A DNA stretch of 41,045 nucleotides from a virus, in IMG/VR virus record IMGVR_UViG_3300035198_000017, positions 1 to 41,045 of that record, one strand, 5' to 3'. Positions 4,138 to 35,795 of this stretch are shown piece after piece. Position 1 is the first letter of the stretch, and every line of letters starts with the position of its first letter. The translations under genes and the position numbers were made by a program. The notes beneath the pieces were generated by a model, which made no database searches, had not been told where the DNA came from, and worked only from the letters and a program-made list of their open reading frames with translations.

Positions 4138-4186
4138 TTTAGTACTAAACTATTTATATACGAAAAACACATTATATATTATAGAG
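4138..4186 (+). promoter_or_regulatory. Late promoter with operator palindrome, capsid gene
   Basis: The perfect 12-bp palindrome TTTAGTACTAAA (4138-4149) lies 3 bases upstream of the TATA box TTTATATA (4153-4160). A second block ATTATATATTATAGAG (4171-4186) follows. The structural-operon promoter at 20440 has the same three parts at almost the same spacing (30 versus 31 bases from AGTACT to the second block). Expected start site is near 4183. Confidence 0.75.
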
Positions 4187-4250
4187 CAACTATGAAATCC
4201 TATCTATATTTAAGGAATAGGTATTATAATTTAATTAAAGGTGATTATGA

Positions 4251-5510
4251 ATGAATAGTAAAAAGAAGCTCCTAGAAGCAAAACTAGAAGATAAAGAAGT
4301 TAAAGACTTTCTAAAGACTGCAGAGGGACATCCATTCATACAAGCATGGATAAAGAACTATGAAAAGAAACTTGCTGAAGGCGAAATAGAAATGGGTGCT
4401 TTGAGAGGTCAAACAGTAGGAGATACGACTGGAGCAGGAGTGCAAACACAAGTTGCTGCTACACTTGAAATCTTTAATGCTGTAGTTAGAGGTTTTACAC
4501 GATACATGGATGATTCATGGATAAAGAGATACGCTACAGACGCTGTAGTGTTTAAAATACCTAAAGTTGAATATATGGAAGCAGTAGCTGAAATTAATGC
4601 TGGACAACTTCCACATACAGAGAAGAAAATAGATTACGTGACAATTGACTTAAGTACACCTGAATCAGAAAAAGGTGGAAAAGTCACTTGGACACGTGCT
4701 CTAATGGAAGATGTTACATTTGATGTACAAGCAGAAATGATGGAAGGACTAGGACATGCTATTGCAGTTAAAATGCAAAATGACCTTATAGGTAAAGTTA
4801 AAGACGTAGCGAACAATTATGCATGGCTTATGCCTTATGGAGCTAAAAGAAGTATTAGTTCACCTATAACATGGACTGAATTTCTAAGTACAGTTGGGGA
4901 TGTAGATAGTGGATTTGACAGATATGTCGTTACAATAGGCAGCACATCAATAAGTAACTCATATCTGAAAACTAAAGTTTCAACAAGTAATGATACTAAC
5001 GCATCAAATGTAGTAGGATACTTATTCCAAGTAAACTCAAGTACAGAAATTGTAATATTACATGGAGGTTCACATGCAGCAGTACCAGCAAGCGGAACAC
5101 TATATATTAATCCAGGAGCAAGTGCAATAGCTGTTACAGTTAGTGCTTCAACAAGTACTGGTAAAGTTACTTATGGACCAGCAGATATAGTGTTAGTTAG
5201 TCCAGACCTATATTGGGAACTACTTAACATCATACAATTAACTAACGTGTTGTATGAGGGAAGTACAGACCCAGTTAGACAAGGAGTTATACGATTAGCA
5301 TTAGGAACAACAATTATAAAGCATGGTTTACTTCCATCAAGGACAATGGTAGCATTAAATAGTGACAAGTGTATAGGAATGGTACTACGTAGAGCATTAA
5401 AGATAGAACCAGTTTTGTTCCCTGTGTGGAACGAATATGGATTCATAGGCACAATACGATACGGAGCAAGTATACTGTTTGAAGGAGCTATGCAGTGGGC
5501 AGGAAGCTAA
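4251..5510 (+). CDS. Major capsid protein (HK97 fold, putative)
   Basis: 419 residues. A short charged helical N-terminus leads into a Gly/Thr-rich linker, a segment with aromatic-rich E-loop-like character (residues 75-115), a long amphipathic helix (E-D-V-T-F-D-V-Q-A-E-M) and a C-terminal beta region ending R-Y-G-A-S-I-L-F-E-G-A, the pattern of HK97-type phage capsid proteins. Residues near 225-295 are Ser/Thr/Gly-rich, possibly a surface insertion. It has its own strong promoter and AAAGGTGAT ribosome site and is followed by a T7 tract, so it is a single-gene late unit. It is about 18 kb from the portal gene on this linear map. Family assignment rests on pattern and context. Confidence 0.75.
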   Translation: MNSKKKLLEAKLEDKEVKDFLKTAEGHPFIQAWIKNYEKKLAEGEIEMGALRGQTVGDTTGAGVQTQVAATLEIFNAVVRGFTRYMDDSWIKRYATDAVVFKIPKVEYMEAVAEINAGQLPHTEKKIDYVTIDLSTPESEKGGKVTWTRALMEDVTFDVQAEMMEGLGHAIAVKMQNDLIGKVKDVANNYAWLMPYGAKRSISSPITWTEFLSTVGDVDSGFDRYVVTIGSTSISNSYLKTKVSTSNDTNASNVVGYLFQVNSSTEIVILHGGSHAAVPASGTLYINPGASAIAVTVSASTSTGKVTYGPADIVLVSPDLYWELLNIIQLTNVLYEGSTDPVRQGVIRLALGTTIIKHGLLPSRTMVALNSDKCIGMVLRRALKIEPVLFPVWNEYGFIGTIRYGASILFEGAMQWAGS

Positions 5511-5540
5511 ACAATTAATTAGCTTCTATAATATACCCTA

Positions 5541-5547
5541 TTTTTTT
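5541..5547 (+). terminator. T-tract terminator after capsid gene
   Basis: Seven consecutive T residues about 30 bases after the capsid stop, without a strong hairpin, fit the U-rich intrinsic terminators of archaea. Further T runs follow up to 5577. Confidence 0.5.
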
Positions 5548-5577
5548 ATGTATTAAATTTTTATGTAGGTAATTTTT

Positions 5578-6264
5578 ATGTATGTAATACCAGAAAATAA
5601 AACAGTATATTTACGTGTAAGTGGACTAGCAACTTATTTATTCTGTCCCAAAAGAAGTAAAATCCAGTTATTTAATAACCCAGTAATATATAGTAAAGAG
5701 AAAGGTGCAGTAGTTAAAGGAATAAAGTTACATCAACAATATGAATATATGATGTATAATGTAGGATTTGATAGGACATTAGTAAAGTATAAGTTAGGAT
5801 GGACACCATTAAAAGTATTTGAGAAACAAGTACCGAATACTAATATAATAATTAGAGGTAAACCAGATGATTTAAGAACAATAATAAATAAGAAAGATAA
5901 CAAAAAATATACTGTATTATTAGAGCTTAAAACTACTGGTCGTAAAATGATTAGGAGAGAAATATATTGTGCTATGAAACAACTACAATTGTATATGTGG
6001 TTACTTAAAGAAAAATTAGAGGAAATAGGTTTTCCATTATGGAAGTATGGTATAGTAGAAATATACAGTCAAAAAACAGGTGAATTGTTAAAAAGATATA
6101 GTGTACAATATGATGATGATATTGAAACATGGATTAAGCATGTAGCGAAAACTTTTACTGGAGAAGAACCTTTAAATATTCCAGAAGATATTAGATACTG
6201 TAAGAAATGTCCACAAGCAATACGTAATGTATGTGAATGGTATAGGTTGATGAAAAATGGATAA
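5578..6264 (+). CDS. Cas4-like RecB-family nuclease with Fe-S cysteines
   Basis: 228 residues. An N-terminal Cys23 (L-F-C-P-K-R) and three C-terminal cysteines (C-K-K-C-P...N-V-C, near residue 210) match the 4Fe-4S frame of Cas4/AddB-type nucleases. The PD-(D/E)xK core is present: His52, Asp97/98 (R-G-K-P-D-D), Glu116-x-Lys118 (L-E-L-K) and a Q-L-x-x-Y-M-W helix. It would be a DNA exonuclease making or trimming ends. No other cas gene or repeat array is present, so it is a viral Cas4 homologue rather than part of a CRISPR locus. It lies directly before the terminase, so a packaging or recombination role is plausible. Confidence 0.88.
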   Translation: MYVIPENKTVYLRVSGLATYLFCPKRSKIQLFNNPVIYSKEKGAVVKGIKLHQQYEYMMYNVGFDRTLVKYKLGWTPLKVFEKQVPNTNIIIRGKPDDLRTIINKKDNKKYTVLLELKTTGRKMIRREIYCAMKQLQLYMWLLKEKLEEIGFPLWKYGIVEIYSQKTGELLKRYSVQYDDDIETWIKHVAKTFTGEEPLNIPEDIRYCKKCPQAIRNVCEWYRLMKNG

Positions 6265-6418
6265 AGTAGTGTTTGTATGTAAATATAGTCCAATATGTAA
6301 TTGGAAATGTGAAAGGTGTCCATACTTACTTAAAGAATTAAAAATAGTAGAATTGCAGAAAAGTGAAGAATTATATAAAGATTTCAAAAATATGAATATA
6401 ACATGTGATTGTACATGA
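6257..6418 (+). CDS. Cys-rich microprotein
   Basis: 53 residues with Cys8, Cys14, Cys18, Cys21, Cys50 and Cys52, including C-N-W-K-C-E-R-C, a likely metal-binding knuckle. It overlaps the nuclease gene upstream by 8 bases and the terminase ATG downstream by 4 (ATGA), so the three are translationally coupled. Function unknown; a small terminase or nuclease partner is a guess. Confidence 0.7.
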   Translation: MDKVVFVCKYSPICNWKCERCPYLLKELKIVELQKSEELYKDFKNMNITCDCT

Positions 6419-7647
6419 GTAGATGGGTTAATATAGAAGATTACTTTGAATACTTGACAGGATTAAAACCTACTAAAGACCAAACTGAATTACTGAAAAC
6501 TTTAACAGATATGAATAATAAGAAAATAATAATTAGTGCTGGTCGTCAATCAGGAAAAACTTTAACTTGTGCTGTAGCTGTATTATGGTATGTATTTGAA
6601 TATGAAAAACCAATAAAAGTATTATTAATTAGTGCTCAAGAAAACATATTGTATTTTCATATAAGAGAAATATTTAAGAGACATCCAGAATTTACAGATG
6701 AAATAGTAGCACAAGGAGTATATAGTTTAGTTCCCTTAAGAGGATTTGAATCTAAAAAAGGAAGTATAGTTTATGTTAAAGGAGCTACAGATAAACAGAT
6801 TAGAGGTTTACCAGCTGATGTAGTGTTTATAGATGAAGCGTGTGAATGTAAAGATGATGTTATATTAACAGCATTAGGTAATTTAAGTGGTCCAATAAGT
6901 AAGTTTATACTGTTAAGTACACCACATAAAGACAACTTGTTTACTAGATGGGCAACAGATGAAAATAGTGGATTTAAAGTACACATGTGGAGTGCAGAGA
7001 GTTTACCCTGGCATGATAAGACAATATTAGAAACTAAAAAGAAAGAAATGAGTAGTGAAAAGTATGCTGTAGAAGTTTTAGGTAGACCTCCAACTATACA
7101 GGAAAGAGGATTCTTTAGTAGGACACATATTAACAAGTGTGTAACTGAAAGTCCAATAGTTAGAGAAGGAGGCACAATAGAGATAGGTATAGATTTTGGA
7201 GAAATAGAAAGTAGTACAATATTAACTGTTATAGAACGTGTAGGAAGAATAAAAAGTAAAATATTAAATATTAAAAAGTGGAAGTTACCTCCAGAATTAG
7301 TTAGTGATGAAATCTTAGTAGAAATACGCAAGTGGAATCCAACTATAGTTAAAGCAGATAATAAACCTCCAGAATACATGAATATATTAAAGACTAAAAC
7401 TAGAAAAATAGTGTTTATAGACTGCACATTTCATAAAGAGTTAATGTTAGGACAATTACAGAAACTAATAAGGGAACATAATATATTGATACCTCAACAT
7501 GAAGTAGAATTAATAAAACAGCTAACAACTTATAAGAGAGGAATGAAAGTTGGAGATGATTATGTGGATTCTCTAGCGTTAGCTATTTATGACTATGAAT
7601 ATAAGCCTAGTTATGGAAGAATATATTTAGGAAAGAATAAACTTTAA
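6415..7647 (+). CDS. terL: Terminase large subunit
   Basis: 410 residues from ATG 6415 (the ATGA overlap decides this over the TTG at 6409). ATPase domain: Walker A G-R-Q-S-G-K-T at 43-49, Walker B D-V-V-F-I-D-E at 135-141, coupling motif L-L-S-T-P at 167-170. RNase-H-like nuclease domain: first acidic residue Asp260 in I-G-I-D-F-G, last Asp in Y-V-D-S-L-A-L-A near 385. It pumps and cuts DNA at the portal. No small terminase was recognised nearby. A TATA-type promoter overlaps its stop. Confidence 0.95.
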   Translation: MSRWVNIEDYFEYLTGLKPTKDQTELLKTLTDMNNKKIIISAGRQSGKTLTCAVAVLWYVFEYEKPIKVLLISAQENILYFHIREIFKRHPEFTDEIVAQGVYSLVPLRGFESKKGSIVYVKGATDKQIRGLPADVVFIDEACECKDDVILTALGNLSGPISKFILLSTPHKDNLFTRWATDENSGFKVHMWSAESLPWHDKTILETKKKEMSSEKYAVEVLGRPPTIQERGFFSRTHINKCVTESPIVREGGTIEIGIDFGEIESSTILTVIERVGRIKSKILNIKKWKLPPELVSDEILVEIRKWNPTIVKADNKPPEYMNILKTKTRKIVFIDCTFHKELMLGQLQKLIREHNILIPQHEVELIKQLTTYKRGMKVGDDYVDSLALAIYDYEYKPSYGRIYLGKNKL

Positions 7648-7650
7648 ATG
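7636..7650 (+). promoter_or_regulatory. Promoter AATAAACTTTAAATG overlapping terL stop
   Basis: TATA box TTTAAATG at 7643-7650 includes the terminase stop TAA. The first GGA of the next array is at 7680, 37 bases downstream, the same distance as at 688/725. A second copy of the promoter motif follows the array at 7754. Confidence 0.55.
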
Positions 7651-7669
7651 TTAGTTATTATAAATATAA

Positions 7670-7749
7670 GAGATAGAGCGGACTGGAGCGGAGTTGATAG
7701 GAGAGGATAGTAGGGGAATGGAAAGGACTGGAAAGGAGTTTATTGGAAC
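7670..7749 (+). repeat. GGANN pentamer array 2 (about 16 units)
   Basis: From 7670 the sequence divides without an indel into GAGAT, AGAGC, GGACT, GGAGC, GGAGT, TGATA, GGAGA, GGATA, GTAGG, GGAAT, GGAAA, GGACT, GGAAA, GGAGT, TTATT, GGAAC. It is flanked on both sides by TATA-type promoters, so it could also be a short independent RNA. No convincing coding sequence. Confidence 0.9.
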
Positions 7750-7753
7750 AAAA

Positions 7754-7780
7754 AATAAAGTTTAAATACTGGTTTAACTA
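7754..7780 (+). promoter_or_regulatory. Promoter AATAAAGTTTAAATA plus GGTTTAAC motif
   Basis: The promoter motif is 7754-7768 (TATA 7761-7768). Immediately after it, GGTTTAAC at 7771-7778 repeats the motif found several times in the 35.4-kb non-coding region. Expected start site is about 7790, so the mRNA for 7801 would have almost no leader. Confidence 0.6.
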
Positions 7781-7800
7781 TCTATGTAAAGTGATTTAAT

Positions 7801-8103
7801 ATGATTACAGCAAAGAAAATAAAACAGAAAACTAAAGATTGGAAACTTTATTTGTGGGGTCCACTATTCTTATTATACTATTGGTTTTTATGGCAATTAG
7901 ATTTATGTGGAGCATATTACGTATGGAAATATGGTAATAATGATTATATAGATGGATGGATATTTGAATATGTTTTAGGACATGAATTTTTTAGAGTTAC
8001 AAGTTTCTATAATGCTTGTATGATAGTATTGTTACTGTTTCCAATAATGACATTTATATTGTTTAATAGTATGTATAAAGTAGTGAGGGTACAGAAAAAA
8101 TGA
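7801..8103 (+). CDS. Membrane protein, two or three helices
   Basis: 100 residues. A basic N-terminus leads into a hydrophobic stretch (about residues 17-38, Trp/Tyr/Leu-rich); a second helix spans about 72-92, with a short polar loop between them containing a D-Y-I-D-G-W segment. GTGATT lies just upstream. It opens a cluster of membrane proteins around a papain-like protease and overlaps the next gene by 4 bases. Role unknown; egress or envelope disruption is possible from context. Confidence 0.65.
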   Translation: MITAKKIKQKTKDWKLYLWGPLFLLYYWFLWQLDLCGAYYVWKYGNNDYIDGWIFEYVLGHEFFRVTSFYNACMIVLLLFPIMTFILFNSMYKVVRVQKK

Positions 8104-8405
8104 ACATACATGAAATCTTAGATAAACACTTTACTTTCTTAAGACAATTCAATAATGTTTTAAATATTAATGTAGGAGAAGAAATAACTAAAGGTAAAAG
8201 GACAGGTAGACAAGCAATAATAGTTTATGTTAAAAAGAAGTTACCATTAGAAAAACTAAAAACTAATGAGATATTACCTGATTATGTAGATGATGTACCA
8301 ATAGATGTTATAGAATGGACAGCTGATTATGAATTGGGAAATACTACGCCTTCTTATTATAATCCTAAAATACAAAAGAAAATAGCTAGTGGTGTAAAGA
8401 AATGA
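8100..8405 (+). CDS. Protease-associated N-terminal domain protein
   Basis: 101 residues. It contains V-G-E-E-I-T-K-G-K-R-T-G followed by I-I-V-Y-V-K-K-K-L-P, then I-L-P-D-Y-V-D-D-V-P-I-D-V-I-E. This resembles a domain I know from the N-termini of bacterial trypsin-like proteases (G-x-x-T-G-x-x-x-I-x-V-F-V-x-x-K, then V-P-T-D-V). Here it is a separate gene that overlaps the papain-like protease by 4 bases. It may act as a pro-domain, chaperone or inhibitor of that protease. Confidence 0.65.
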   Translation: MNIHEILDKHFTFLRQFNNVLNINVGEEITKGKRTGRQAIIVYVKKKLPLEKLKTNEILPDYVDDVPIDVIEWTADYELGNTTPSYYNPKIQKKIASGVKK

Positions 8406-9142
8406 GTAGTGATTTAAGAGACACTTGTACTCCAGTTAGAAATCAGTTACAATGTGGTAGCTGTACTGCTTTTGGAACTATTGCAGCATGGGAACAAAAT
8501 ATGGTAGTAGAATTTAATCAAATATGGGATTTAAGTGAAAGACACTTGTTTAGTTGTAGTGGAGGAACATGTGAAACTGGAAATACTATGGATAGAGTGT
8601 TTAATACAGCTAAAGATTATGGTGTAGCATTAGAAGATTGTTGTCCTTATGATGGAGTAGACCATTTATGTAGTGACGTATGTAAAGACTGGTATGTTAA
8701 TGGAAAAAAACTTAAACAATGGAGAACAATAAAGAATATAGAAGAAATGAAAACTTTGTTAAAGAGTAAATGTTTAGTTACTACTATGACTGTATACCAA
8801 TCATTTATTAACTATAAAGGAGGAGTATATCATAAATTAAATAATGATTCATTATTAGGATACCATGCAATATGTGTATGCGGATATAATGATACTTTAC
8901 AAGCATGGTTATTAAAGAACAGTTGGGGAACAAACTGGGGACTAAATGGTTATGCATATATAAAATATGGAGAATGTAATATAGATGATGAAATGTATGA
9001 ATTAATACCAGATACAGAACCACCTAATCCTATACCTGTACCTAGTCCATGTAAAGTGGGAAACTTTATAACTAAACTGTTAAATGTATGGTGTTACTTA
9101 TTTAAAAGGAAAGGTAGATTCTATTATATGAATAAGAGGTGA
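8402..9142 (+). CDS. Papain-like (C1A) cysteine protease
   Basis: 246 residues. The papain triad is complete: oxyanion Gln15, nucleophile Cys21 (Q-C-G-S-C-T-A-F), His155 (G-Y-H-A-I-C-V), Asn173 (L-K-N-S-W-G-T-N-W-G). The core starts at residue 1 with no signal peptide or pro-segment, which the upstream gene might supply. After the catalytic domain come a Pro-rich linker (residues 203-215) and a hydrophobic, basic tail that could dock at a membrane. Many extra cysteines suggest disulfides. A proteinaceous host cell wall or S-layer is a plausible substrate; so are virion proteins. ATGA overlap fixes the start. Confidence 0.92.
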   Translation: MSSDLRDTCTPVRNQLQCGSCTAFGTIAAWEQNMVVEFNQIWDLSERHLFSCSGGTCETGNTMDRVFNTAKDYGVALEDCCPYDGVDHLCSDVCKDWYVNGKKLKQWRTIKNIEEMKTLLKSKCLVTTMTVYQSFINYKGGVYHKLNNDSLLGYHAICVCGYNDTLQAWLLKNSWGTNWGLNGYAYIKYGECNIDDEMYELIPDTEPPNPIPVPSPCKVGNFITKLLNVWCYLFKRKGRFYYMNKR

Positions 9143-9146
9143 TGTT

Positions 9147-9356
9147 ATGGGAGAAAAAATAGAAGTGAAAGAAACAGATAAACCATTTATACTTGCTTTA
9201 ATAAGTTCAGGGATAACAATATTAAATATAGTGTTTATAGCTGTGGGAGCATTAACAAACAATAAACAAATGATAGATACATGTGTAGAAACGTTAAAGT
9301 TTACTTTTCCATTAACAACAATGGCATGGACATTTTATTTTGGAAAGAAACAGTAA
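9147..9356 (+). CDS. Two-helix membrane protein, holin-like in form
   Basis: 69 residues: a charged N-terminus, helix about 13-36, short loop with N-N-K, and a second hydrophobic segment about 50-64 ending in G-K-K-Q. Size, topology and position after a protease resemble holins, but no family match is claimed. Ribosome site GAGGTGAT lies a few bases before the ATG. Confidence 0.6.
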   Translation: MGEKIEVKETDKPFILALISSGITILNIVFIAVGALTNNKQMIDTCVETLKFTFPLTTMAWTFYFGKKQ

Positions 9357-9359
9357 AGA

Positions 9360-9494
9360 ATGAATAAAGGAAGAATATATATGGAGTGTTTAGCTAAAAA
9401 TTGTATAAGTAGACAAACAGAGTGTAGTAAAGTGTGTCAATGGTGGACTTACGAATTAACAGTTATGAAGGCTAGAGGTGTAGTGAAACAATGA
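9360..9494 (+). CDS. Cys-containing microprotein
   Basis: 44 residues with four cysteines (residues 10, 15, 22, 26) in C-x4-C-x6-C-x3-C, followed by W-W. It ends with an ATGA overlap into the next gene. The ribosome site is weak. Function unknown. Confidence 0.55.
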   Translation: MNKGRIYMECLAKNCISRQTECSKVCQWWTYELTVMKARGVVKQ

Positions 9495-9586
9495 CTACAG
9501 AACAAATGTTAATACTAGTCTTAATGTTGTTATCTATATTAGGTTATGCTATAATGCTTTATTATAATGAAGTGAATAAGAAATGA
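9491..9586 (+). CDS. Single-helix membrane microprotein
   Basis: 31 residues, nearly all one hydrophobic helix (residues 6-25) with a short charged end. Overlaps of 4 bases on both sides (ATGA) support translation. It could be a membrane-lesion or spanin-like helper in the protease cassette; this is inference from position only. Confidence 0.6.
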   Translation: MTTEQMLILVLMLLSILGYAIMLYYNEVNKK

Positions 9587-9828
9587 AGGAATTATTGTAT
9601 TGTGTATCATGTGGTAAACCTATATGGAGACATAAATTAAAGACAGGTGAAGTGGATACTTTAGGTAGAAATTTATGTCAAATATGTAAGAATAAAGCTA
9701 GAATGGAGTTACAGAGGAATAGAAATAAAATTTATAAAGTAGATGAAAGTATATTTCAAGTAAATGTAAAGAAAGAATTAGATAGGTTAGCTAAAAGACA
9801 AAAACTTAAAGAGGATAAAAAGAAATGA
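9583..9828 (+). CDS. Zinc-ribbon protein with basic helix
   Basis: 81 residues. C-V-S-C-G-K at the N-terminus and C-Q-I-C-K-N near 33 form a ribbon; the rest is a Lys/Arg-rich helix. Likely nucleic-acid binding. Starts by ATGA overlap and ends by ATGA overlap. Confidence 0.65.
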   Translation: MKELLYCVSCGKPIWRHKLKTGEVDTLGRNLCQICKNKARMELQRNRNKIYKVDESIFQVNVKKELDRLAKRQKLKEDKKK

Positions 9829-10028
9829 ATATAAAGAAAGTTTTAGGACAAGTGTTTTTTCTAATAGGTTATGGTATAACGTTACATGCTATAGCTGACG
9901 AGTTATATAAGAAAGGAGGATATGCTGAAATATTAAAACCACAAGGTGAATGGATTGGACTTACACTAGTTATGTTAGGTTTTATATTGTTAATGTGGAA
10001 TTACTGGTTAAGGGATAATAATGATTGA
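9825..10028 (+). CDS. Two-helix membrane protein
   Basis: 67 residues with hydrophobic helices at about 7-24 and 43-62 and a short Lys/Glu loop between. It ends in acidic residues. Coupled to its neighbours by overlaps. Another holin-like candidate in form; no family assigned. Confidence 0.6.
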   Translation: MNIKKVLGQVFFLIGYGITLHAIADELYKKGGYAEILKPQGEWIGLTLVMLGFILLMWNYWLRDNND

Positions 10029-10290
10029 TTTAAACATTAAATATGTTGAACCTAAAATTAAAATAGTTAAAGGTAAAGGTAGACCTATTTGGTGTAGAAT
10101 ATGTTATAGAATGTTACTATCACAGCAACAATACGTGTTTTTTAGAAGCACCAATAGGGATTTACTGGATATGCTTGATATTCCATTTAAGAGACCACAC
10201 GTAACGATTTGCATAGAATGTTGGGGCGTATACAAGAGCAAAATTGAGCAAATACTCGGCAGAGGTTATGAATTATTACAAATAAAATAA
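10021..10290 (+). CDS. Zinc-binding hypothetical protein
   Basis: 89 residues. C-R-I-C near residue 26 and C-I-E-C-W-G near 64 suggest a split zinc site around a polar middle. Overlaps the upstream gene by 8 bases. The gene ends just before a TATA-type promoter (10286). Function unknown. Confidence 0.65.
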   Translation: MIDLNIKYVEPKIKIVKGKGRPIWCRICYRMLLSQQQYVFFRSTNRDLLDMLDIPFKRPHVTICIECWGVYKSKIEQILGRGYELLQIK

Positions 10291-10300
10291 ACTTTATATA
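10286..10300 (+). promoter_or_regulatory. Promoter AATAAACTTTATATA
   Basis: The TATA box at 10293-10300 lies 36 bases before the first unit of array 3 (10329). Expected start site is about 10320, so the 10422 mRNA would have a leader of about 100 bases made mostly of pentamers. Confidence 0.65.
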
Positions 10301-10320
10301 TTTGATTGTTATTAGTAATT

Positions 10321-10416
10321 ATGAAATTGGGATGGAGCGGGCAGGAGTGGACAGGAGCGAATGGGAATGGATTGGATTGGAAAGGAATGGATTGGACAGG
10401 AAAGGAATGGAGGTGA
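10321..10416 (+). CDS. Possible Trp/Gly-rich leader ORF within array 3
   Basis: ATG 10321 opens 31 codons through the pentamer array, with five Trp codons, and stops at the TGA that is part of the ribosome site GGAGGTGA of the next gene. That would allow coupling of leader and gene. Caution: a (GGANN)n array has almost no stops in any frame, and no ribosome site precedes this ATG. Confidence 0.25.
   Translation: MKLGWSGQEWTGANGNGLDWKGMDWTGKEWR
10329..10413 (+). repeat. GGANN pentamer array 3 (17 units)
   Basis: Seventeen uninterrupted 5-base units from GGGAT to GGAGG; only the second and third positions of two units (GGGCA, GAATG) and the first unit depart from GGA. The last unit, GGAGG, is itself the ribosome site (GGAGGTGA) of the gene starting at TTG 10422. 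It is the longest and cleanest of six arrays. Confidence 0.95.
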
Positions 10417-10421
10417 AATAA

Positions 10422-10940
10422 TTGAATAATAAAGATTATAAGAAGTGGACTGTTACGATACGAGGAACTAAACCGTTAATATTTAATAATCCAGCAAGTA
10501 TGAACGTGCCTAAAGGCGGTAAAGAAGTGCCAGTAGAAGCTATGTTATATTTAAATAAAAAGGGACAATTGATACAACCAGCATTACATATTATACAAAT
10601 GATTAAAGATAGTGCTTATAAAATACATAGAAAAAACGGTATGTTAGTTAACGCATATTTAGAAATAGAACCAGAAGAAATAGTGCATAAGAACCAAAAC
10701 TGGGAAATATTTGAAAGTCAAGTGGTTATAGATAAAAGCAGAATTACAAAGAAAAGACCCATGTTGAAGGAATGGGAATTAACGTTTACTGTGATTTCAT
10801 TAAATCCTAAAGAATTAACTGGTGAAATAATACGTGAAGCATTAGATTATGCTGGAACGTTTAATGGTTTAGGAGATTGGAGTCCACGTAAAGGTGGAAG
10901 GTACGGTAGGTTTGAAGTTGTACAGTTTGAAGAACAATAA
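10422..10940 (+). CDS. RAMP/Cas7-like fold candidate
   Basis: 172 residues from a TTG with a strong GGAGGTGA site. It opens with a strand W-T-V-T-I-R-G-T-K-P-L-I-F and ends L-G-D-W-S-P-R-K-G-G followed by Y-G-R-F-E-V. The pairing of a T-x-x-x-P-L-I start with a Gly-rich end that reads G-x-G-x-x-R-x-x-x-x-x-G-R-F resembles a widespread viral family I recall only loosely and RAMP-type RNA-binding folds. It lies upstream of the exonuclease and recombinase genes, so nucleic-acid binding is plausible. No CRISPR system is nearby. Confidence 0.6.
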   Translation: MNNKDYKKWTVTIRGTKPLIFNNPASMNVPKGGKEVPVEAMLYLNKKGQLIQPALHIIQMIKDSAYKIHRKNGMLVNAYLEIEPEEIVHKNQNWEIFESQVVIDKSRITKKRPMLKEWELTFTVISLNPKELTGEIIREALDYAGTFNGLGDWSPRKGGRYGRFEVVQFEEQ

Positions 10941-10959
10941 AATTCCATTTTTTATTATA

Positions 10960-11025
10960 ATGAAAGAATGGACTGGACTGGATAGGATAAGAATGGAAAG
11001 GAACGGATTGGTTTTATTTAGGTGA
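10960..11025 (+). CDS. Possible leader ORF within array 4
   Basis: ATG 10960 opens 21 codons (M-K-E-W-T-G-L-D) across the pentamer array and stops at a TGA inside the AGGTGAT ribosome site of the exonuclease gene, as the leader ORF at 10321 does. It lacks an own ribosome site. The same caution applies: pentamer arrays are open by construction. Confidence 0.25.
   Translation: MKEWTGLDRIRMERNGLVLFR
10965..11009 (+). repeat. GGANN pentamer array 4 (9 units)
   Basis: Units AGAAT, GGACT, GGACT, GGATA, GGATA, AGAAT, GGAAA, GGAAC, GGATT in perfect phase. A T6 tract (10948-10953) and TTATTATA precede it, acting as a terminator or weak TATA box. It lies in the leader of the exonuclease gene. Confidence 0.9.
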
Positions 11026-11029
11026 TTAG

Positions 11030-11719
11030 ATGAAGTGGACTAAACAAGAAGATGATGTAATTCGTAAATTATACCCTATTATGGGAACTAAAGTAAAGTT
11101 ACATCTAGAGAATAGAACTATAGATAGTATTGAACATAGAGCAAGACGTTTAGGAGTAAAGTTTATTCCAACAGGGGAAGGACCAGCAGGATTTTTAGAT
11201 ATTGAAAGTAGTGGGTTACAAGGAGACTTTAATTATATGTATAGTTGGGCTATAAAAACAGCTAATAAAAATGAAGTGTGTCATTCTATAATTAGTAGTG
11301 ATGAAATGAGGAATGGAGTGTTAGATAAACGAGTAGTGCAAGAGTTAGTTAATGCTTTACAGAATTATAAGAGAATATACACTTATTATGGAACAAGATT
11401 TGATATACCTTTTGCTAGAGCAAGAGCATTATATCATAAAATAGAATTTATACCTTACGGAGTTATTGAACATAGAGATTTATACTATTTAGCTAGAAGA
11501 GTGTTAAGGATACATAGAAATAGATTAGAAAGTGTAGCTGATTTATTAGGTATTAAAGGTAAAACACATCTTAATCCTAGAATTTGGGTAATGGCTAATT
11601 GCGGAAATGAACAAGCATTACAATATATATTGAAACATAATATTAAAGATGTTGAAGTGCTTGAACAAGTGTATAAAAAATTACAACCTTACGAAGCAAA
11701 AACAAGACGTTATATTTAA
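11030..11719 (+). CDS. DnaQ-like 3'-5' exonuclease with N-terminal Myb/SANT-type HTH
   Basis: 229 residues. Residues 3-43 (W-T-K-Q-E-D-D ... R-A-R-R-L-G) are a SANT/Myb-like DNA-binding helix bundle as in phage HTH proteins. Exo I F-L-D-I-E-S (Asp57, Glu59), Exo II Y-G-T-R-F-D-I-P-F (Asp125) and Exo III H-N-I-K-D-V (Asp207) give the DEDD metal site of RNase-H-like exonucleases. No polymerase domain. It likely trims single-stranded or recombination ends, together with RadA and the ERCC4 nuclease downstream. AGGTGAT lies before the ATG. Confidence 0.85.
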   Translation: MKWTKQEDDVIRKLYPIMGTKVKLHLENRTIDSIEHRARRLGVKFIPTGEGPAGFLDIESSGLQGDFNYMYSWAIKTANKNEVCHSIISSDEMRNGVLDKRVVQELVNALQNYKRIYTYYGTRFDIPFARARALYHKIEFIPYGVIEHRDLYYLARRVLRIHRNRLESVADLLGIKGKTHLNPRIWVMANCGNEQALQYILKHNIKDVEVLEQVYKKLQPYEAKTRRYI

Positions 11720-11720
11720 G

Positions 11721-11785
11721 GGAGTGGAAAGGATGGGAGTGGAGTGGACTGTAACGGATTGGACAGGAGTGGAATGGAATGGTAA
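11721..11785 (+). repeat. GGANN pentamer array 5 (13 units)
   Basis: Thirteen phased units from GGAGT to GGTAA with one weak unit (GTAAC), starting 2 bases after the exonuclease stop. TTATATTTA at 11710-11718 could be a TATA box. The ATG of the next gene (11779) lies inside the last GGAAT unit, so the array supplies the ribosome site. Confidence 0.92.
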
Positions 11786-11982
11786 ATAATAAAGAAAAAC
11801 CTAAAAAGATACGTGTGAAAGGATGGGTAGAAGATAATGAACCAATATCTAATATTCCTACAGTATGTCCTAAATGTGGAAGTAAACTTAAAATTGTTAA
11901 TGCTTTACAGACATCTGCAGGAATAATATTTGTGTTTTGTCCTAACAGCAAGTGTCGGTATGCAATCGAATATGAGGAATAA
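11779..11982 (+). CDS. Zinc-ribbon protein
   Basis: 67 residues. A basic N-terminus precedes C-P-K-C-G-S-K-L near residue 35 and C-P-N-S-K-C near 55. It is a standard two-knuckle ribbon. The start falls in array 5, with GGAGT/GGAAT units as the only ribosome site. Function unknown. Confidence 0.65.
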   Translation: MVNNKEKPKKIRVKGWVEDNEPISNIPTVCPKCGSKLKIVNALQTSAGIIFVFCPNSKCRYAIEYEE

Positions 11983-11989
11983 AATGGAA

Positions 11990-12004
11990 AATAAAGTTTA
12001 TATT
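11990..12004 (+). promoter_or_regulatory. Promoter AATAAAGTTTATATT
   Basis: A copy of the repeated promoter motif just after the stop at 11982. TATA starts at 11997, and the phased array starts at 12031, 34 bases downstream, as at the other array promoters. Confidence 0.65.
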
Positions 12005-12030
12005 TTAGTAATGATTATTAAATGGATAAA

Positions 12031-12075
12031 GGATGGGAAGGGATAGGAGCGTAGAGGAGAGGATTGGAGAGGATT
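12031..12075 (+). repeat. GGANN pentamer array 6 (9 units)
   Basis: Units GGATG, GGAAG, GGATA, GGAGC, GTAGA, GGAGA, GGATT, GGAGA, GGATT in perfect phase; a further GGATA at 12024 is out of phase by two. It lies in the leader of the 12102 gene, which also has a separate ribosome site (GAGGAATAATC). Confidence 0.9.
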
Positions 12076-12101
12076 AATCTAAAAGAATTTGAGGAATAAT
12101 C

Positions 12102-12296
12102 ATGAGTAGTTTGAAAGAAAAAGCAAAAACTTTAAAGAGATTGCCCTGTTTCGGAGACGCTAATATGAGTGATGCTTGTCCACAATGTCCAGACTATGAG
12201 GAATGCATTGAAGAAACTTTAAAGCGACCAGCAAAACCTGCGTTTGGAAAACGAGTAGAAAGGATTTTAATGAAAATGATGGAGGAATCAAAATGA
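12102..12296 (+). CDS. Cys-motif small protein
   Basis: 64 residues with C16 and a C-P-Q-C-P-D-Y-E-E-C cluster near residues 26-35, flanked by basic helices. Metal binding is likely. Overlaps the next gene (ATGA). Base composition from here to about 12680 looks slightly richer in G+C than the neighbours. Confidence 0.6.
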   Translation: MSSLKEKAKTLKRLPCFGDANMSDACPQCPDYEECIEETLKRPAKPAFGKRVERILMKMMEESK

Positions 12297-12580
12297 GTAA
12301 TTTGAGGAAAAGAGCTTTTAAGACATGCATAAAATGGGATTCAATTGGAAAAACTTGTTTAGAAGAACGATATGCTGTGTGGCTTGAGGATGCACAAAAA
12401 GAACTTTTGGAGTTGAAACAGAAACTACAACAATTACGAGATTTTTGGGTTACCCACATAGAACCTGTTGACGATGAACAACCGCATCCCTATTTCTTTA
12501 CTCTACGTTCTTTTACAAAGGAAGAGAAGTTGAAAGTTGAAAAGTTGTTGAAAGAGGCTAAGCAAAATGAAGTGCCCTGA
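12293..12580 (+). CDS. Coiled-coil hypothetical protein
   Basis: 95 residues. A central heptad-like stretch (E-L-L-E-L-K-Q-K-L-Q-Q-L) suggests a short coiled coil, followed by a polar segment with an H-P-Y-F-F-T-L turn and a Lys-rich helix. ATGA start overlap; no family recognised. Confidence 0.6.
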   Translation: MSNLRKRAFKTCIKWDSIGKTCLEERYAVWLEDAQKELLELKQKLQQLRDFWVTHIEPVDDEQPHPYFFTLRSFTKEEKLKVEKLLKEAKQNEVP

Positions 12581-12677
12581 TTGTGGTCAAAAAATGCGAA
12601 ACCCGGAGGAAACAGAAGAAGGTGACTATTGGTGTCCAGAATGTGGTTATCTATTCGAAGACGAGGAAGATTGCTAA
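12567..12677 (+). CDS. Zinc-ribbon microprotein
   Basis: 36 residues: C-P-D-C-G at residue 3 and C-P-E-C-G-Y near 23, a complete minimal zinc ribbon with an acidic tail. It overlaps the upstream gene by 14 bases. Confidence 0.65.
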   Translation: MKCPDCGQKMRNPEETEEGDYWCPECGYLFEDEEDC

Positions 12678-12696
12678 AAAGAGGTGAATGATAGTA

Positions 12697-13269
12697 ATGG
12701 AACGTAAAGATTTCAAGAAGTGGGTTACAGATATTGTTTATGAAAGACAGAATGGTTTATGTAGTAAGTGTGGTAGAAGTTTAGAACTGGGATTTCATAA
12801 ACATCATAAAGATGGTGATGCTAGTAATAATAGTGTAGAAAATTTAGAGTTGTTATGTCCAGAATGTCATGGAGGAGAACAGTATAAAACTTTACAGCAA
12901 CAGCGTGTTAAACACTTGCAGCAAATAGAAGATATTATTGGTTTAGCTAGTAGTGGAGAGGTTAGTGGTGCCGTAGTTGAAAAGATTACTGAACTTATTA
13001 AGTTGGGACTTAGTTTAGAGAATAAAGTGTATAGTGATGTAGAATTACCTCCAGTAAATATAAGATTACAAAGTAATATTGCTATACAACAAATGTTACT
13101 TAAAGAATACCAGAGAGGATTTGAAGATGGACTTAAAACAGCATATAATATATTGATTACAAGTATGGTTAGTAATGTTAAAGGTTTAGAGGACCAATTT
13201 AAAAATGATGACATGTTAAAGTTGGCTAAGTTATTGAAAGATTATAGAGAAGGAGGAATTAATAAATGA
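12697..13269 (+). CDS. HNH endonuclease domain protein with helical tail
   Basis: 190 residues. The HNH core spans 8-60: C-S-K-C-G (Cys22, Cys25), F-H-K-H-H-K-D-G (His36-37), an S-V-E-N-L segment and C-P-E-C-H (Cys54, Cys57, His58). The 130-residue tail is helical and may bind DNA or partners. It could be a packaging-associated, homing-type or repair nuclease. ATG 12697 is preferred because GAGGTGA ends about 10 bases upstream; ATG 12688 is too close to that site. Confidence 0.8.
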   Translation: MERKDFKKWVTDIVYERQNGLCSKCGRSLELGFHKHHKDGDASNNSVENLELLCPECHGGEQYKTLQQQRVKHLQQIEDIIGLASSGEVSGAVVEKITELIKLGLSLENKVYSDVELPPVNIRLQSNIAIQQMLLKEYQRGFEDGLKTAYNILITSMVSNVKGLEDQFKNDDMLKLAKLLKDYREGGINK

Positions 13270-13415
13270 AAGTTAAAATAAGAATAGAAGAAGTGTATGA
13301 TAGTATAGATTTAGAAAACTTAATAAAATATATACGTAAACTACGTGAACAATTTTATAGTGAAACTACGTTAGATTTTGAATTAGAAGTTAATGTGAAA
13401 GGTGTACAAGTATGA
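13266..13415 (+). CDS. Small hypothetical protein
   Basis: 49 residues, charged alpha/beta pattern without cysteines. Joined to both neighbours by 4-base overlaps, which is the main support. Function unknown. Confidence 0.55.
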   Translation: MKVKIRIEEVYDSIDLENLIKYIRKLREQFYSETTLDFELEVNVKGVQV

Positions 13416-13600
13416 GTGATAAAAAGAAATGTAAGCATTTTGAAGAATGTACCCAATTAGTTTATTATGGAGAATACACACATAGATGTGTTAATGGTTA
13501 CCCTTTTATACAAGAACAATGTTGGGAAAACTGGAGAATATGGGAAAGGTCTAATGTAAAAACGATTCCTAAAGAATGGAAAGAAAAAGAAAAGGATTAA
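13412..13600 (+). CDS. Cys-rich hypothetical protein
   Basis: 62 residues with Cys7, Cys13, Cys26 and Cys37 and many aromatic residues (W-E-N-W-R-I-W). A metal site of C-x5-C-x12-C-x10-C type is likely. It directly precedes radA. Confidence 0.6.
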   Translation: MSDKKKCKHFEECTQLVYYGEYTHRCVNGYPFIQEQCWENWRIWERSNVKTIPKEWKEKEKD

Positions 13601-13603
13601 TAA

Positions 13604-14680
13604 ATGAGTGAACCTAAACAAATTAAGTTAGATAAAGAATTATTAAAGAAAGAAAAACATATAGATAGTAAAACTCCTGAAGAAATGAATAGTGAAGTTA
13701 CTAATGAACAAGAGTATGATATTACACAGTTAAGTGGAGTCGGACCAAAAACTGCTGAAAAACTTAGAGAGAAAGGATACTTAACTCTTATTGATATTGC
13801 TACTACTAGAGCAGATGAACTTAGTGCTGTAATGGGTATTGGTTATGCACAGGCTAAAGTGTGGATTGATGATGCTTTAGATAAAGTTAGTGCTAAAATG
13901 AAGTTGCAGAATGCTACTGATTACACTAAAGAAAAGAATGATAAAACTATAATATTTACTAGTGGAAGTGAAAACTTAAACAAATTACTTGATGGAGGAT
14001 TTAAAACTGGAACAATATATGGTACTGTAGGTAGATTTGCTACTGGTAAAACACAGATAGGTTTTGAGTTAGTTGTTGATTGTTTAAGTAAAGGTTATAG
14101 TAGTGTATTTATAGAAACAGAACCAGACACGTTTCATTTAGAACGTTTACAGGAAATAGCTAATGGTAAAGGAATAAAGAATATAGACTGGAGTAAACTT
14201 TACGTATGTCCAGCAGACCAAATTCCCACAGCGAAGGCTCAATATTTACAGTATAAAATTATACAGAAAGCATTAGAAAGAGGAGAAAACATTAAACTTA
14301 TAGTAGTGGACAGTTTTAATGCTAAGTTTCGTGCTGGATGGAGTAGAACTGAAATGTTGCCTCTTAGAACACGTGAGTTTGGTGAGCATTTTACTTTAAT
14401 AGAATATTTAACAGCAAAGTATAATTTATGTTGGTATTTAACATTTCAAGCTATAGCACCTCCTAGACCAGACCAAGGATTACAAGCTAAAGTAAAGTTT
14501 GGGCAAGAATTTTATCCAATAGGTGGAGATTATGTATTGCATAGTGTTAATATCTGGTTAGGACTTAATCAGGTAAAAACTGAATTATGGACTGCTGTTT
14601 TGTTTGATTCTAGTTATATTGATAGAGGAACAGTTGAATTTGTATTATGTAAAAATGGTCTTATGGATAGTGTTAAATAA
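13604..14680 (+). CDS. radA: RadA-family recombinase
   Basis: 358 residues, close to cellular archaeal RadA. A helix-hairpin-helix domain occupies about 41-95 (L-S-G-V-G-P-K-T-A-E-K-L). The RecA core has Walker A G-R-F-A-T-G-K-T at 143-150 (cellular enzymes usually read G-E-F-G-S-G-K-T), Walker B K-L-I-V-V-D-S at 231-237, and an L2-like loop after F-Q-A-I-A-P-P. It forms filaments on single-stranded DNA and pairs homologous strands. The next gene, an ERCC4 nuclease, starts one base after its stop, so the two probably act together in recombination-dependent replication or repair. Confidence 0.93.
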   Translation: MSEPKQIKLDKELLKKEKHIDSKTPEEMNSEVTNEQEYDITQLSGVGPKTAEKLREKGYLTLIDIATTRADELSAVMGIGYAQAKVWIDDALDKVSAKMKLQNATDYTKEKNDKTIIFTSGSENLNKLLDGGFKTGTIYGTVGRFATGKTQIGFELVVDCLSKGYSSVFIETEPDTFHLERLQEIANGKGIKNIDWSKLYVCPADQIPTAKAQYLQYKIIQKALERGENIKLIVVDSFNAKFRAGWSRTEMLPLRTREFGEHFTLIEYLTAKYNLCWYLTFQAIAPPRPDQGLQAKVKFGQEFYPIGGDYVLHSVNIWLGLNQVKTELWTAVLFDSSYIDRGTVEFVLCKNGLMDSVK

Positions 14681-15292
14681 ATGATATATTGTGACGTGCA
14701 TGAACCACAACAAATTATTGATGAGTTAAAACGTAAACAGTTAAGTGTAGAAGTTAGACGTTTAGATAGTGGTGATTACGTGTTTAATGGTGTTGCTATT
14801 GAAAGGAAAACTTTACAAGATTTATTAAGTAGTACTTTTGATAGAAGATTATGGGTTCAACTAGACACTTTAAAAAACACGTATAAACATCCATTATTAC
14901 TTGTTGAGAATTGGACTGGGTTAACTGGACAAGATAATATTATTAAGGGGATATTAAGTACAATTATAACTAAGTTTAAAATACCAATATTATATAGTTA
15001 TAATTATTTAGAAACTGTAGAATGGATTAAATCATTATATATTAAGACTGGTACTAATAAAGTTACATTTTTACCAGCACCAGTTAAGAAACAAAAAACT
15101 ATACAAGATATTAAATTGGAAATGTTACAGGTTATTCCAACTATTGGACCCAAAACAGCTAAAACAATATTAACTAAATGTCCAGATATATTTAGTAAAC
15201 CTATAAATGGTAAGGAACTACAAAATATTAAAAATTTGCATAAACAAGGTAAGGAACTATTAATAGAAGTGTTAGGAGAGAATGTTAAATGA
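14681..15292 (+). CDS. ERCC4-type (XPF/Hef/Mus81-like) structure-specific nuclease
   Basis: 203 residues. The nuclease domain has D5 (I-Y-C-D), D32 (S-G-D-Y) and the hallmark E41-R-K43-x3-D47. A helix-hairpin-helix tail (I-P-T-I-G-P-K-T-A-K-T-I) binds DNA. This matches archaeal XPF/Hef enzymes without helicase domain, which cut branched or flap DNA. It is adjacent to radA, forming a recombination pair. Confidence 0.9.
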   Translation: MIYCDVHEPQQIIDELKRKQLSVEVRRLDSGDYVFNGVAIERKTLQDLLSSTFDRRLWVQLDTLKNTYKHPLLLVENWTGLTGQDNIIKGILSTIITKFKIPILYSYNYLETVEWIKSLYIKTGTNKVTFLPAPVKKQKTIQDIKLEMLQVIPTIGPKTAKTILTKCPDIFSKPINGKELQNIKNLHKQGKELLIEVLGENVK

Positions 15293-15528
15293 ATAATCAT
15301 TTTACACAGAGTGTAACACAGAAACACAGACACACACAAGCAGAGGGGAAAGAAAGGCAGGGGTTGAATAGGGATGTGAGAAATGGATTAGTTAAGTGTA
15401 AACGATGTGGAAGTGTTGATGTTTGGAGATGTGGTAAGACAATATTAAGTGGTAGAATATTACAGAGATATAAATGTAAAAATTGTGGTTTTTTATTTAA
15501 TGGTGAGGTGATTAAGTATGTTTGGTAG
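15289..15528 (+). CDS. Zinc-ribbon protein, transposase-like ribbon
   Basis: 79 residues. The C-terminal half, C-K-R-C-G-S then Y-K-C-K-N-C-G-F-L-F, resembles the zinc ribbon of IS-type transposases or regulators. The first 35 residues are polar and low-complexity, and the real start could be internal (GTG near 15374). ATGA overlap supports 15289. No transposase catalytic domain is present. Confidence 0.6.
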   Translation: MNNHFTQSVTQKHRHTQAEGKERQGLNRDVRNGLVKCKRCGSVDVWRCGKTILSGRILQRYKCKNCGFLFNGEVIKYVW

Positions 15529-15769
15529 TAATTTGAAGGGTAGGAAGAAGCGTATTATTGAGTTAGCTTATAGGCTTAGAGAGAAAGGTGAAGGTTCAGA
15601 AGATGATTTGGAAAGGATTATTGCAGAGTTTACTTTTGATTATGGAGTTAAAGAGGAAACTACGTGGAGTTACTACGACTTGTTAACTACTATTGGATTA
15701 ATAATTACAGAATATGGAAAGAACACTTGGAAATATAATGTTGAAAAGGAAAAAGAACTTAAACTGTGA
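15518..15769 (+). CDS. Helical protein, possible winged-helix
   Basis: 83 residues. R-I-I-E-L-A-Y-R-L-R-E-K-G-E-G is followed by a helix and F-D-Y-G-V-K-E-E-T-T-W-S-Y-Y-D-L-L-T-T-I-G-L-I, a helix-turn-helix-like pattern of a DNA-binding regulator. No exact family named. Overlaps the upstream gene by 11 bases. Confidence 0.5.
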   Translation: MFGSNLKGRKKRIIELAYRLREKGEGSEDDLERIIAEFTFDYGVKEETTWSYYDLLTTIGLIITEYGKNTWKYNVEKEKELKL

Positions 15770-15772
15770 AGA

Positions 15773-15787
15773 AATAAAGTTTAAATA
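15773..15787 (+). promoter_or_regulatory. Promoter AATAAAGTTTAAATA
   Basis: Exact copy of the repeated promoter motif right after a stop codon; TATA 15780-15787. Expected start site near 15808. No pentamer array follows; AAAGGAGG at 15808-15815 is the ribosome site of the next gene. Confidence 0.65.
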
Positions 15788-15822
15788 GTTGATGTTGAAT
15801 AGTTGAAAAGGAGGAAAAATAT

Positions 15823-17180: not shown

Positions 17181-17194
17181 AACAAACATCCATA

Positions 17195-26066: not shown

Positions 26067-26075
26067 TTATGGTTT

Positions 26076-26106
26076 ATTTAGACCATAAAATATATTATAT
26101 AGAGGT
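26076..26106 (+). promoter_or_regulatory. Possible internal promoter with hairpin-like repeat
   Basis: AATATATTATATAGAGGTG (26088-26106) nearly repeats 35300-35316 and resembles the downstream block of the late promoters. Just before it, TATGGT (26068-26073) and ACCATA form an inverted repeat with an 8-base gap. It could be a TATA box for the 26116 gene or a processing site. Confidence 0.4.
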
Positions 26107-26115
26107 GAATAAAGA

Positions 26116-26646
26116 ATGAAAGTAAACAAAATGGTAGTAGTTGATAGTGTAGAAACAATAGTTAAAGACAAGTATGGAAACATTAAAAGTAGACATGTAT
26201 ACCCAGATGACTATGGTCTATTACATAAGTTACTAGTGAAACTTGGATTAAGACATAACAGTATAGTTAGTGCTGGAATGGCAGCAGTTGCTGGGTTAAT
26301 ACTTACTGATGTTGGAGGTACAGCGTTTGATTATGTAGCTTTTGGAAGTAACAATACTGCAGTTACAGTTAATGATACTGCTTTAGGAACAGAAATTAAA
26401 CGTAAAGCAGGTACAGGTACAAGAGTAACCACAACTTATGCTAATGATACTGCACAATTAGTGGCATCATTTAGTAGTGCCGATGGTTTAACTGGTACAA
26501 GTACAATATGGGAATGTGGAATGTTTAATGCTGCTACTGCAGGAACAATGTTGTTTAGACAAGTGTATAGTGCTGCTGACACGTTAAATTGGGATGCTGG
26601 AGACACTTATCAACTAACACTTAAAGTACAAGTCAAGCAGGGTTAA
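26116..26646 (+). CDS. Tail or surface structural protein
   Basis: 176 residues. The stretch D-Y-V-A-F-G-S-N-N-T-A, then T-A-L-G-T-E-I-K-R-K, W-E-C-G-M-F-N-A and G-T-M-L-F-R matches a beta-sandwich pattern frequent in phage tail/fibre proteins (A-x-G-x-G-x-T ... A-L-x-x-E ... E-x-G-L-F-x-A). It is likely exposed on the virion. A pyrimidine tract follows the gene. Confidence 0.65.
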   Translation: MKVNKMVVVDSVETIVKDKYGNIKSRHVYPDDYGLLHKLLVKLGLRHNSIVSAGMAAVAGLILTDVGGTAFDYVAFGSNNTAVTVNDTALGTEIKRKAGTGTRVTTTYANDTAQLVASFSSADGLTGTSTIWECGMFNAATAGTMLFRQVYSAADTLNWDAGDTYQLTLKVQVKQG

Positions 26647-34796: not shown

Positions 34797-35015
34797 ATGA
34801 AATATAGAATAATACATCAAGACATATTTCCAAACACTTTAAATGATAATATTAAAATACAGTTTCCAACAAATACTAGTAAAGTTACACGTGTAACTAA
34901 AACAACTGATGGTCAATATATTATTGAATGGGATGTAGAACCTAGTTTAGATGTTGTTAATTATGTGCAGTCTATATTAGAAAAGAGAGTAATTACAAAG
35001 ATTGTAAAAGAATAA
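34797..35015 (+). CDS. Small hypothetical protein
   Basis: About 72 residues from ATG 34797, directly after the fibre stop (ATG 34785 overlaps it). Beta-rich, with I-K-I-Q-F-P-T-N-T and I-I-E-W-D-V-E-P. It may be a fibre chaperone or attachment protein by position. Confidence 0.5.
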   Translation: MKYRIIHQDIFPNTLNDNIKIQFPTNTSKVTRVTKTTDGQYIIEWDVEPSLDVVNYVQSILEKRVITKIVKE

Positions 35016-35025
35016 ACTTTAAATA
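35011..35025 (+). promoter_or_regulatory. Promoter AATAAACTTTAAATA
   Basis: Copy of the repeated promoter motif overlapping the stop of the preceding gene; TATA 35018-35025, expected start about 35046, 15 bases before the TTG at 35061. Confidence 0.6.
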
Positions 35026-35060
35026 ATTGAATGTGAATGTAACAAGATAGGTGTAATATA

Positions 35061-35255
35061 TTGAGTGATGAATTAAAGAGTTTAAGAGAAAATACAGACC
35101 GTAGGTTTGCTATTTTAATGACTGCTTTACAAGATTTTATGGGAGCACTTAATCAGGAACGTAATAGAATGATTAATTTGTTGGAAATACAAGAGAAAGC
35201 AGTAAGTAAAGAACAAATAGAAACTAAACCTAAAAAGAAAACAAAACAACAATAA
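35061..35255 (+). CDS. Small coiled-coil protein
   Basis: 64 residues from a TTG after AGGTGTAATA. Helical, with E-N-T-D-R-R-F-A-I-L-M and a Lys-rich end. Last gene before the main non-coding region, with its own promoter. Function unknown. Confidence 0.55.
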   Translation: MSDELKSLRENTDRRFAILMTALQDFMGALNQERNRMINLLEIQEKAVSKEQIETKPKKKTKQQ

Positions 35256-35466
35256 AACCACACTCCTATACTCTACTATACTATTACGTTTCTATTAAAT
35301 ATATTATATAGAGTGGTATTGTGGGTTTTATTGTGTGGATTATTTTTGTTTGGTTTTGTGGTTGAAAAGTTTGTACTGATATTTTTGATACGGGTCTGTT
35401 ACATGCAGGGTTTAACTGTTTATTTATATAGAATGGTTTAACTTATAGTGTATTGGAGCACTTTAA

Positions 35467-35476
35467 TTAGTACTAA
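35467..35476. promoter_or_regulatory. Operator palindrome TTAGTACTAA in control region
   Basis: Exact copy of the 10-bp palindrome found at both late promoters and at the early promoter, here without a clear TATA box next to it. It may allow looping or co-operative binding with the site at 35786. Confidence 0.55.
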
Positions 35477-35770
35477 AAATAGGTTAAACTATTAATGATA
35501 ATAAAACAGTAAACTGTCATATTTAAGAATATAATTAAACTAGCTATATAAAAATACTGGTTAAAGTTTCAATACTACCTATTAATATAACTTATACTAG
35601 TACTTTTATTATGTTTATTTATGTTTAGGGTATTGTTTGCAAAGCAGTAAAAGGTCCCATAAGCGTACTGGTATAAGATATAAAAAAGTAGTTAAAAATG
35701 TATTACTGGTTATGTTGGTATTACCTTATAGTGACATGGAAAACATCACTAGTATATCACGAGTAAGCGA

Positions 35771-35795
35771 AAGGTTTAAATACTTTTAGTACTAA
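35771..35795 (+). promoter_or_regulatory. Early promoter with downstream operator
   Basis: BRE-like AAGG followed by TATA box TTTAAATA (35775-35782). The palindrome TTAGTACTAA (35786-35795) begins 4 bases after the TATA box, between it and the expected start near 35808. A protein bound there would block polymerase. The promoter at 38909 shares AAAGGTTTAAATA but lacks the palindrome. Confidence 0.72.

Follow-up and report, generated by a model that had tools for sequence, protein, structure and literature searches.

A 10-bp palindrome at the late and presumed early promoters of a probable archaeal tailed virus: a possible operator for a dual early/late switch

To our knowledge, the timing of early and late genes by archaeal viruses, which use the host polymerase, is poorly known, and most of the viral factors that have been characterised are repressors. 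In the open-licence literature we found no late-gene activator of an archaeal virus. Here we investigate a 10-letter palindrome, TTAGTACTAA, in the virus record IMGVR_UViG_3300035198_000017, the whole 41,045-nucleotide stretch of which is referred to as the window; coordinates are those of the window, and (+) marks features on the plus strand. Besides an N6/N4 DNA methyltransferase, the window encodes a RadA-like recombinase and an ERCC4 nuclease, and it is the genome of a tailed virus; the latter two genes, together with promoters of the TATA/B recognition element (BRE) type and an F93-like protein, make an archaeal host probable. The palindrome is found at the TATA boxes of two late promoters and, in two further copies, in the control region ahead of a presumed early operon. 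Our favoured reading, held tentatively, is that it is the operator of a dimeric viral regulator that works as a dual early/late switch; we infer the binding, the direction of the effect and its timing.

Several described systems resemble this arrangement in part. In archaea, a site upstream of the BRE and TATA box serves activators and a site downstream serves repressors, and the TrmBL1 and Tgr proteins of the Thermococcales do both (PMC4158304). As in the window, theirs is a single inverted-repeat sequence, upstream of BRE/TATA when the gene is activated and downstream when it is repressed. However, their TGM operator, TATCAC-N5-GTGATA, has 0 matches in the window, and they are host proteins that sense sugars and carry an effector domain, whereas our candidate regulator, encoded at 39899, is a bare DNA-binding domain. 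Activators with a site just upstream often serve weak BREs (PMC5512572). EarA, TFB-RF1 and the ara-box activators are comparable to the window in having a site directly upstream of a weak BRE (PMC5512572), but they act on host genes and their site sequences are unrelated.

Among viruses, the halovirus HF2 is likewise a tailed archaeal virus that repeats an intergenic promoter module conserved in relatives, and its class I repeats, too, measure 58 bp and have TAGAG in the region of the start (PMC8707807). Of the HF2 motifs, neither alpha, the 10-mer of beta, the core of gamma nor the class II strings occur in the window, save for one scattered 8-mer, and HF2 has seven plus two repeats proved with reporters, whereas the window has two. 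AvtR of Acidianus filamentous virus 6 is an archaeal virus factor that both represses and activates, and according to a 2017 description the only such factor then known (PMC5569661). Unlike the proposed regulator it is a ribbon-helix-helix protein, not a winged helix; it protects about 100 nt, and no positional switch between early and late operons is involved. The F93 proteins of Sulfolobus turreted icosahedral virus (STIV) and Sulfolobus spindle-shaped virus 1 (SSV1) have a fold like that of the 39899 protein, with full-length profile homology in the case of STIV, but come from other virus families. The DNA target of STIV F93 had not been identified as of 2023 (PMC10551542), and F93 proteins are expected to bind palindromes or pseudo-palindromes (PMC4187194).

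An earlier note on this DNA had listed four copies of TTAGTACTAA, and there are exactly four in the window, at 4139-4148, 20440-20449, 35467-35476 and 35786-35795. In whole-genome dinucleotide shuffles 0.30 copies are expected and none of 100 shuffles reaches four. We do not rely on this genome-wide count, because some 10-mer palindrome reaches at least four copies in 37-50% of simulation runs and the raw count is therefore weak. That the palindrome is non-random is nonetheless confirmed by three other observations: its placement, a test on the control region and its conservation. All four copies are intergenic, in a window of which about 8% is non-coding (binomial p = 5e-5); simulated non-coding sequence is expected to hold 0.03 copies, and any palindrome at all reaches four copies in 2 of 500 such simulations. 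When the motif is fixed from the two late promoters, which makes the test non-circular and allows for the post hoc choice of palindrome, the finding of two extra copies in the 559-nt control region has P = 2e-6 to 7e-6. Copies with a single mismatch number seven, giving a total of 11 against 6.3 expected, and as 6 of 100 shuffles reach 11 there is no clear enrichment. A search of all viral contigs for the palindrome with a TATA box gave, beyond the capsid promoters of three relatives, 31 matches that show no common late-promoter block in the flanking sequence listed and look like chance. The possibility that TTAGTACTAA is a methylation site, raised by the methyltransferase gene, is not favoured because all four sites are at control regions.

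Conservation in close relatives was assessed at the capsid copy, using the three that cover this promoter (L005, L006 and L007), whose capsid proteins are 77-80% identical to that of the window. The palindrome (4139-4148) is identical in all three and is separated by 4 nt from the TATA box, TTTATATA, which is read directly from the sequence at 4153-4160 (+). From ATAATTTAGTACTAA on, the four genomes have one and the same sequence up to and including the TATA box, and upstream of ATAATTTAGTACTAA the L007 sequence is unrelated. In a comparison of invariant runs, the 36 nt at 4134-4169 (+) that hold the palindrome and TATA box are the only non-coding run of at least 24 nt common to the four genomes. 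The block ATTATATA...TAGAG at 4171-4186 (+) is, from its distance to the TATA box, the probable initiation region. Elsewhere in these relatives, exact copies of TTAGTACTAA are found at one coding position, in an ATPase-like gene of L006 and L007. The gene served by the promoter (4251-5510, +) encodes the putative major capsid protein, so called from its place near the terminase gene and its conservation in tailed-virus relatives; the protein has no match in the family library. Its start codon is overlapped, as ATGA, by a 20-aa leader open reading frame at 4192-4254 (+), which is conserved with few changes in the three relatives, and translational coupling is possible.

A second late promoter module, at 20431-20488 (+) before the structural cluster, matches the relatives' capsid promoters at 81-84% by blastn and, as aligned, is a diverged copy of the capsid promoter module of about 58 nt. 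The two have in common the palindrome, TATATAC, AAAAAC, ATTATATA and TAGAG, and together (4134-4186 and 20431-20488) they form a repeated intergenic promoter module, as in HF2, of which the capsid copy is conserved in the three relatives. The palindrome is an exact match (20440-20449) and lies 2 nt upstream of the TATA box, again TTTATATA, at 20452-20459 (+). The gaps of 4 and 2 nt agree with the 2-5 bases given in the earlier note, which had also placed the shared ATTATATA...TAGAG block at matching distances; the block is indeed present at both promoters (4171-4186 and 20473-20488), with its distance shifted by 1 nt.

In two more distant relatives, G006 and G008 (the latter also numbered L066), a single cluster holds the genes for the capsid, nuclease, terminase, 20988-like and portal proteins. 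In the window a block of replication and other genes (7801-20400) separates the terminase gene from the structural cluster, and the displaced half of the late cluster starts with the second copy of the module and its exact palindrome. Most simply, a split of the late cluster and a duplication of its promoter would account for this, which suggests how a virus retains late control after genome rearrangement. That the duplicate keeps the palindrome without change is suggestive, although weak alone, because by our own estimate the chance that ten positions remain unchanged at 82% identity is about 0.14. The palindrome is missing from another possible late promoter, which consists of TTTATTTA followed by ATTATATAGAGGTG at 26073-26116, before the gene at 26116.

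The remaining two copies are in the long intergenic control region (35256-35826) that extends from the last structural gene to the presumed early operon, within the 559 nt before the gene at 35827. One of them (35786-35795) is downstream of a TATA box, TTTAAATA, at 35775-35782 (+), which is preceded by a strong-looking GAAAGG and is presumed to be that of the early promoter because the non-structural genes start behind it. The gap between TATA box and palindrome is 3 nt and not the four bases reported before. The other copy (35467-35476) is 36 nt downstream of a TATA-like box at 35423-35430, and copies of GTTTAAC/GTTAAAC at 35410, 35436 and 35483 (35410-35489 in all) flank this box and palindrome. 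The early and late timing assigned to the promoters here is deduced from gene content only. The control region starts with a hairpin, but shuffled sequences fold just as stably, and Rfam gave no match. A TrmB-like TACT-N3-AGTA that overlaps the early palindrome (35781) was treated as chance; three more are present in the window, none of them near these control regions.

The same palindrome is thus upstream of two TATA boxes and downstream of another. The proposed regulator would be a dimeric DNA-binding protein made from the early/middle operon. Bound upstream of the late TATA boxes it would act positively, and bound between the early TATA box and the expected start site it would block RNA polymerase, so that one factor would lower early and raise late transcription. 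The archaeal rule on which the earlier note built this idea, of activation from upstream and blocking from downstream, matches the behaviour of TrmBL1 and Tgr (PMC4158304). Consistent with a need for activation, the BRE of the capsid promoter is poor, scoring -5.0 by a small matrix, against 5.4-6.0 for four of six other promoters (leave-one-out, best estimate).

The factor that we favour is the protein of 87 aa encoded at 39899-40162 (+). AlphaFold gives a confident winged helix prediction (predicted local distance difference test score, pLDDT, 87.9) with a long C-terminal helix. The profile of its family aligns with STIV F93 over the full length (E 9.6e-8, positions 1-90), and the best structural matches of the model are PadR-type chains and STIV F93 (Z 12-13). 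The protein has no PadR match in Pfam or NCBIfam, and its G008 homolog reaches PF03551 at E 0.05 only. On profile and predicted fold it is an F93-like viral winged-helix protein, in line with the winged-helix label it had been given before, and it is the best candidate for binding the palindrome. The gene belongs to the run of genes that precedes the late genes; in G006 and G008 its homologs come shortly before the capsid gene, which would be a natural place for a late regulator. An alternative candidate is a second small protein at 15518-15769 (+), which may be a winged helix (AlphaFold pLDDT 83), with weak structural matches, the best at Z 7.8. The full proposal, that an F93-family protein of a tailed archaeal virus is a two-way switch on one palindrome, activating late genes at weak BREs and repressing early ones, is itself unlikely. 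If true, it would give the F93-like family a DNA target and archaeal viruses a second dual activator-repressor. With one 10-bp site, two promoter classes and few candidate proteins, the test is specific and cheap.

Several observations weigh against a dual switch. The BRE of the structural promoter scores 0.7 and that of one ordinary promoter -2.0, which makes the BRE comparison thin. At both late promoters 2-4 nt of the palindrome fall within the BRE position; a bound protein could therefore exclude transcription factor B (TFB), and repression is possible there. The half-sites, TTAGT/ACTAA, are adjacent and shorter than winged-helix dimers usually require, and the sites show no evident longer dyad in common. 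The copies at 20440, 35467 and 35786 fall outside the coverage of the close relatives: the sequences of L005 and L006 start only some hundreds of bases beyond the early promoter, and searches with the portal, tail, structural and 36424 proteins found no close relative over 20440 or 35467/35786. A search of related genomes, as the earlier note had suggested, finds the palindrome at the capsid promoters of L005, L006 and L007 and not at those of G006 and G008, two genomes that retain an F93-like gene (31-33% identity). Nor did a search of G006 and G008 for any palindrome common to the capsid promoter and control region give anything convincing. Since these distant relatives lack it at their capsid promoters, the TTAGTACTAA motif is, among the genomes compared, clade-specific.

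A second motif complicates the scheme. In the control region of the window, GTTTAAC ranks first among 7-mers by enrichment; in that of G008 (15767-16193) it is among the top two, with 7 copies against 0.11 expected. It is also found 3 nt downstream of the TATA box, again TTTAAATA, of a middle promoter (7761-7778, +) that is conserved in three relatives. This promoter follows the terminase gene, and the window and the three relatives share the conserved block AATAAAGTTTAAATANTGGTTTAACTAT there while the downstream genes differ. GTTTAAC looks like a second operator in a repressing position; more broadly, it is probably either a second operator or an origin repeat. Because it too marks the control region, a switch run by a single regulator is probably incomplete. 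The one-palindrome scheme of the earlier note is upheld in part: the palindrome belongs to a conserved late module and recurs in the presumed early control region, but a single regulator is probably too simple.

Is the palindrome instead a site of repression throughout? Bound at all four sites, the same protein could silence early and late promoters alike and so maintain quiescence, like F55 of SSV1; it would exclude TFB where its site adjoins the BRE, and RNA polymerase where the site is downstream. At both late promoters the end of the palindrome falls inside the 6 nt of the BRE position. The sites from which F55 represses overlap the BRE or the start site, and SvtR has been proposed to restrain a structural gene until late (PMC5569661). 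It is because the palindrome touches the late BREs, and F55 and SvtR work in this way, that we hold the dual switch only tentatively and regard pure repression as a rather unlikely alternative. Against it, the poor BRE of the capsid promoter makes a repressor least needed there, and no integrase or lysogeny gene was noted, although no systematic search for them was made.

An explanation that we consider improbable is that a host regulator binds the palindrome, or that the palindrome is a promoter element for a variant host initiation factor, borrowed by the virus for timing. A search of species genomes with the capsid protein found no provirus and thus no host. Archaeal viruses depend on the host RNA polymerase (PMC5569661), and the HF2 repeat promoters function in a host without other viral genes (PMC8707807). 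However, a regulator specific to the virus agrees better with the restriction to one clade and with the site downstream of the early TATA box. The control region could instead house a replication origin or copy-control locus that includes its two copies, with the late copies a separate, inherited promoter feature. Origins often hold inverted repeats and repeated motifs, and the control region has inverted repeats centred near 35463 as well as the repeated GTTTAAC; yet two of the four sites adjoin the TATA boxes of promoters for structural genes and the copy at 35786 is 3 nt from another, which makes this very unlikely. Least probable of all is that the late copies, clearly related by descent, reflect one duplicated promoter and the other two are coincidence in AT-rich DNA, given the control-region test and the enrichment of the core AGTACT in non-coding DNA (6 of 19 occurrences, p = 0.003).

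The genes of the window are nearly all on the same strand. A terminase gene was identified, and the capsid and portal-like genes carry putative identities that rest on synteny and conservation, without library matches. The genome is circular or terminally redundant, as indicated by a direct repeat near both ends of the window and by L005, in which the order of genes continues across these ends. In a comparison of 1-183 with 40731-41045, about 126 nt near the start directly repeat the window end (terminal redundancy or circle), and the first 56 nt or so repeat 40731-40790 as its reverse complement, which probably arose by fold-back during assembly. In G008, about the first 9 kb (1-9000) has no match in the window save one tail-like gene, and this contig is possibly composite. 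A glycosyltransferase-like gene at 1924-3627 has an in-frame LAGLIDADG insert, a probable intein; the relatives lack this insert, and their proteins have 247-249 aa. Several intergenic gaps contain G-rich, irregular arrays of pentamers of the GGA type (GGATTGGAATGGA...): 720-760, 7650-7740 (not present after the terminase gene in relatives), 10320-10420, 10960-11010, 11720-11780 and 12040-12110.

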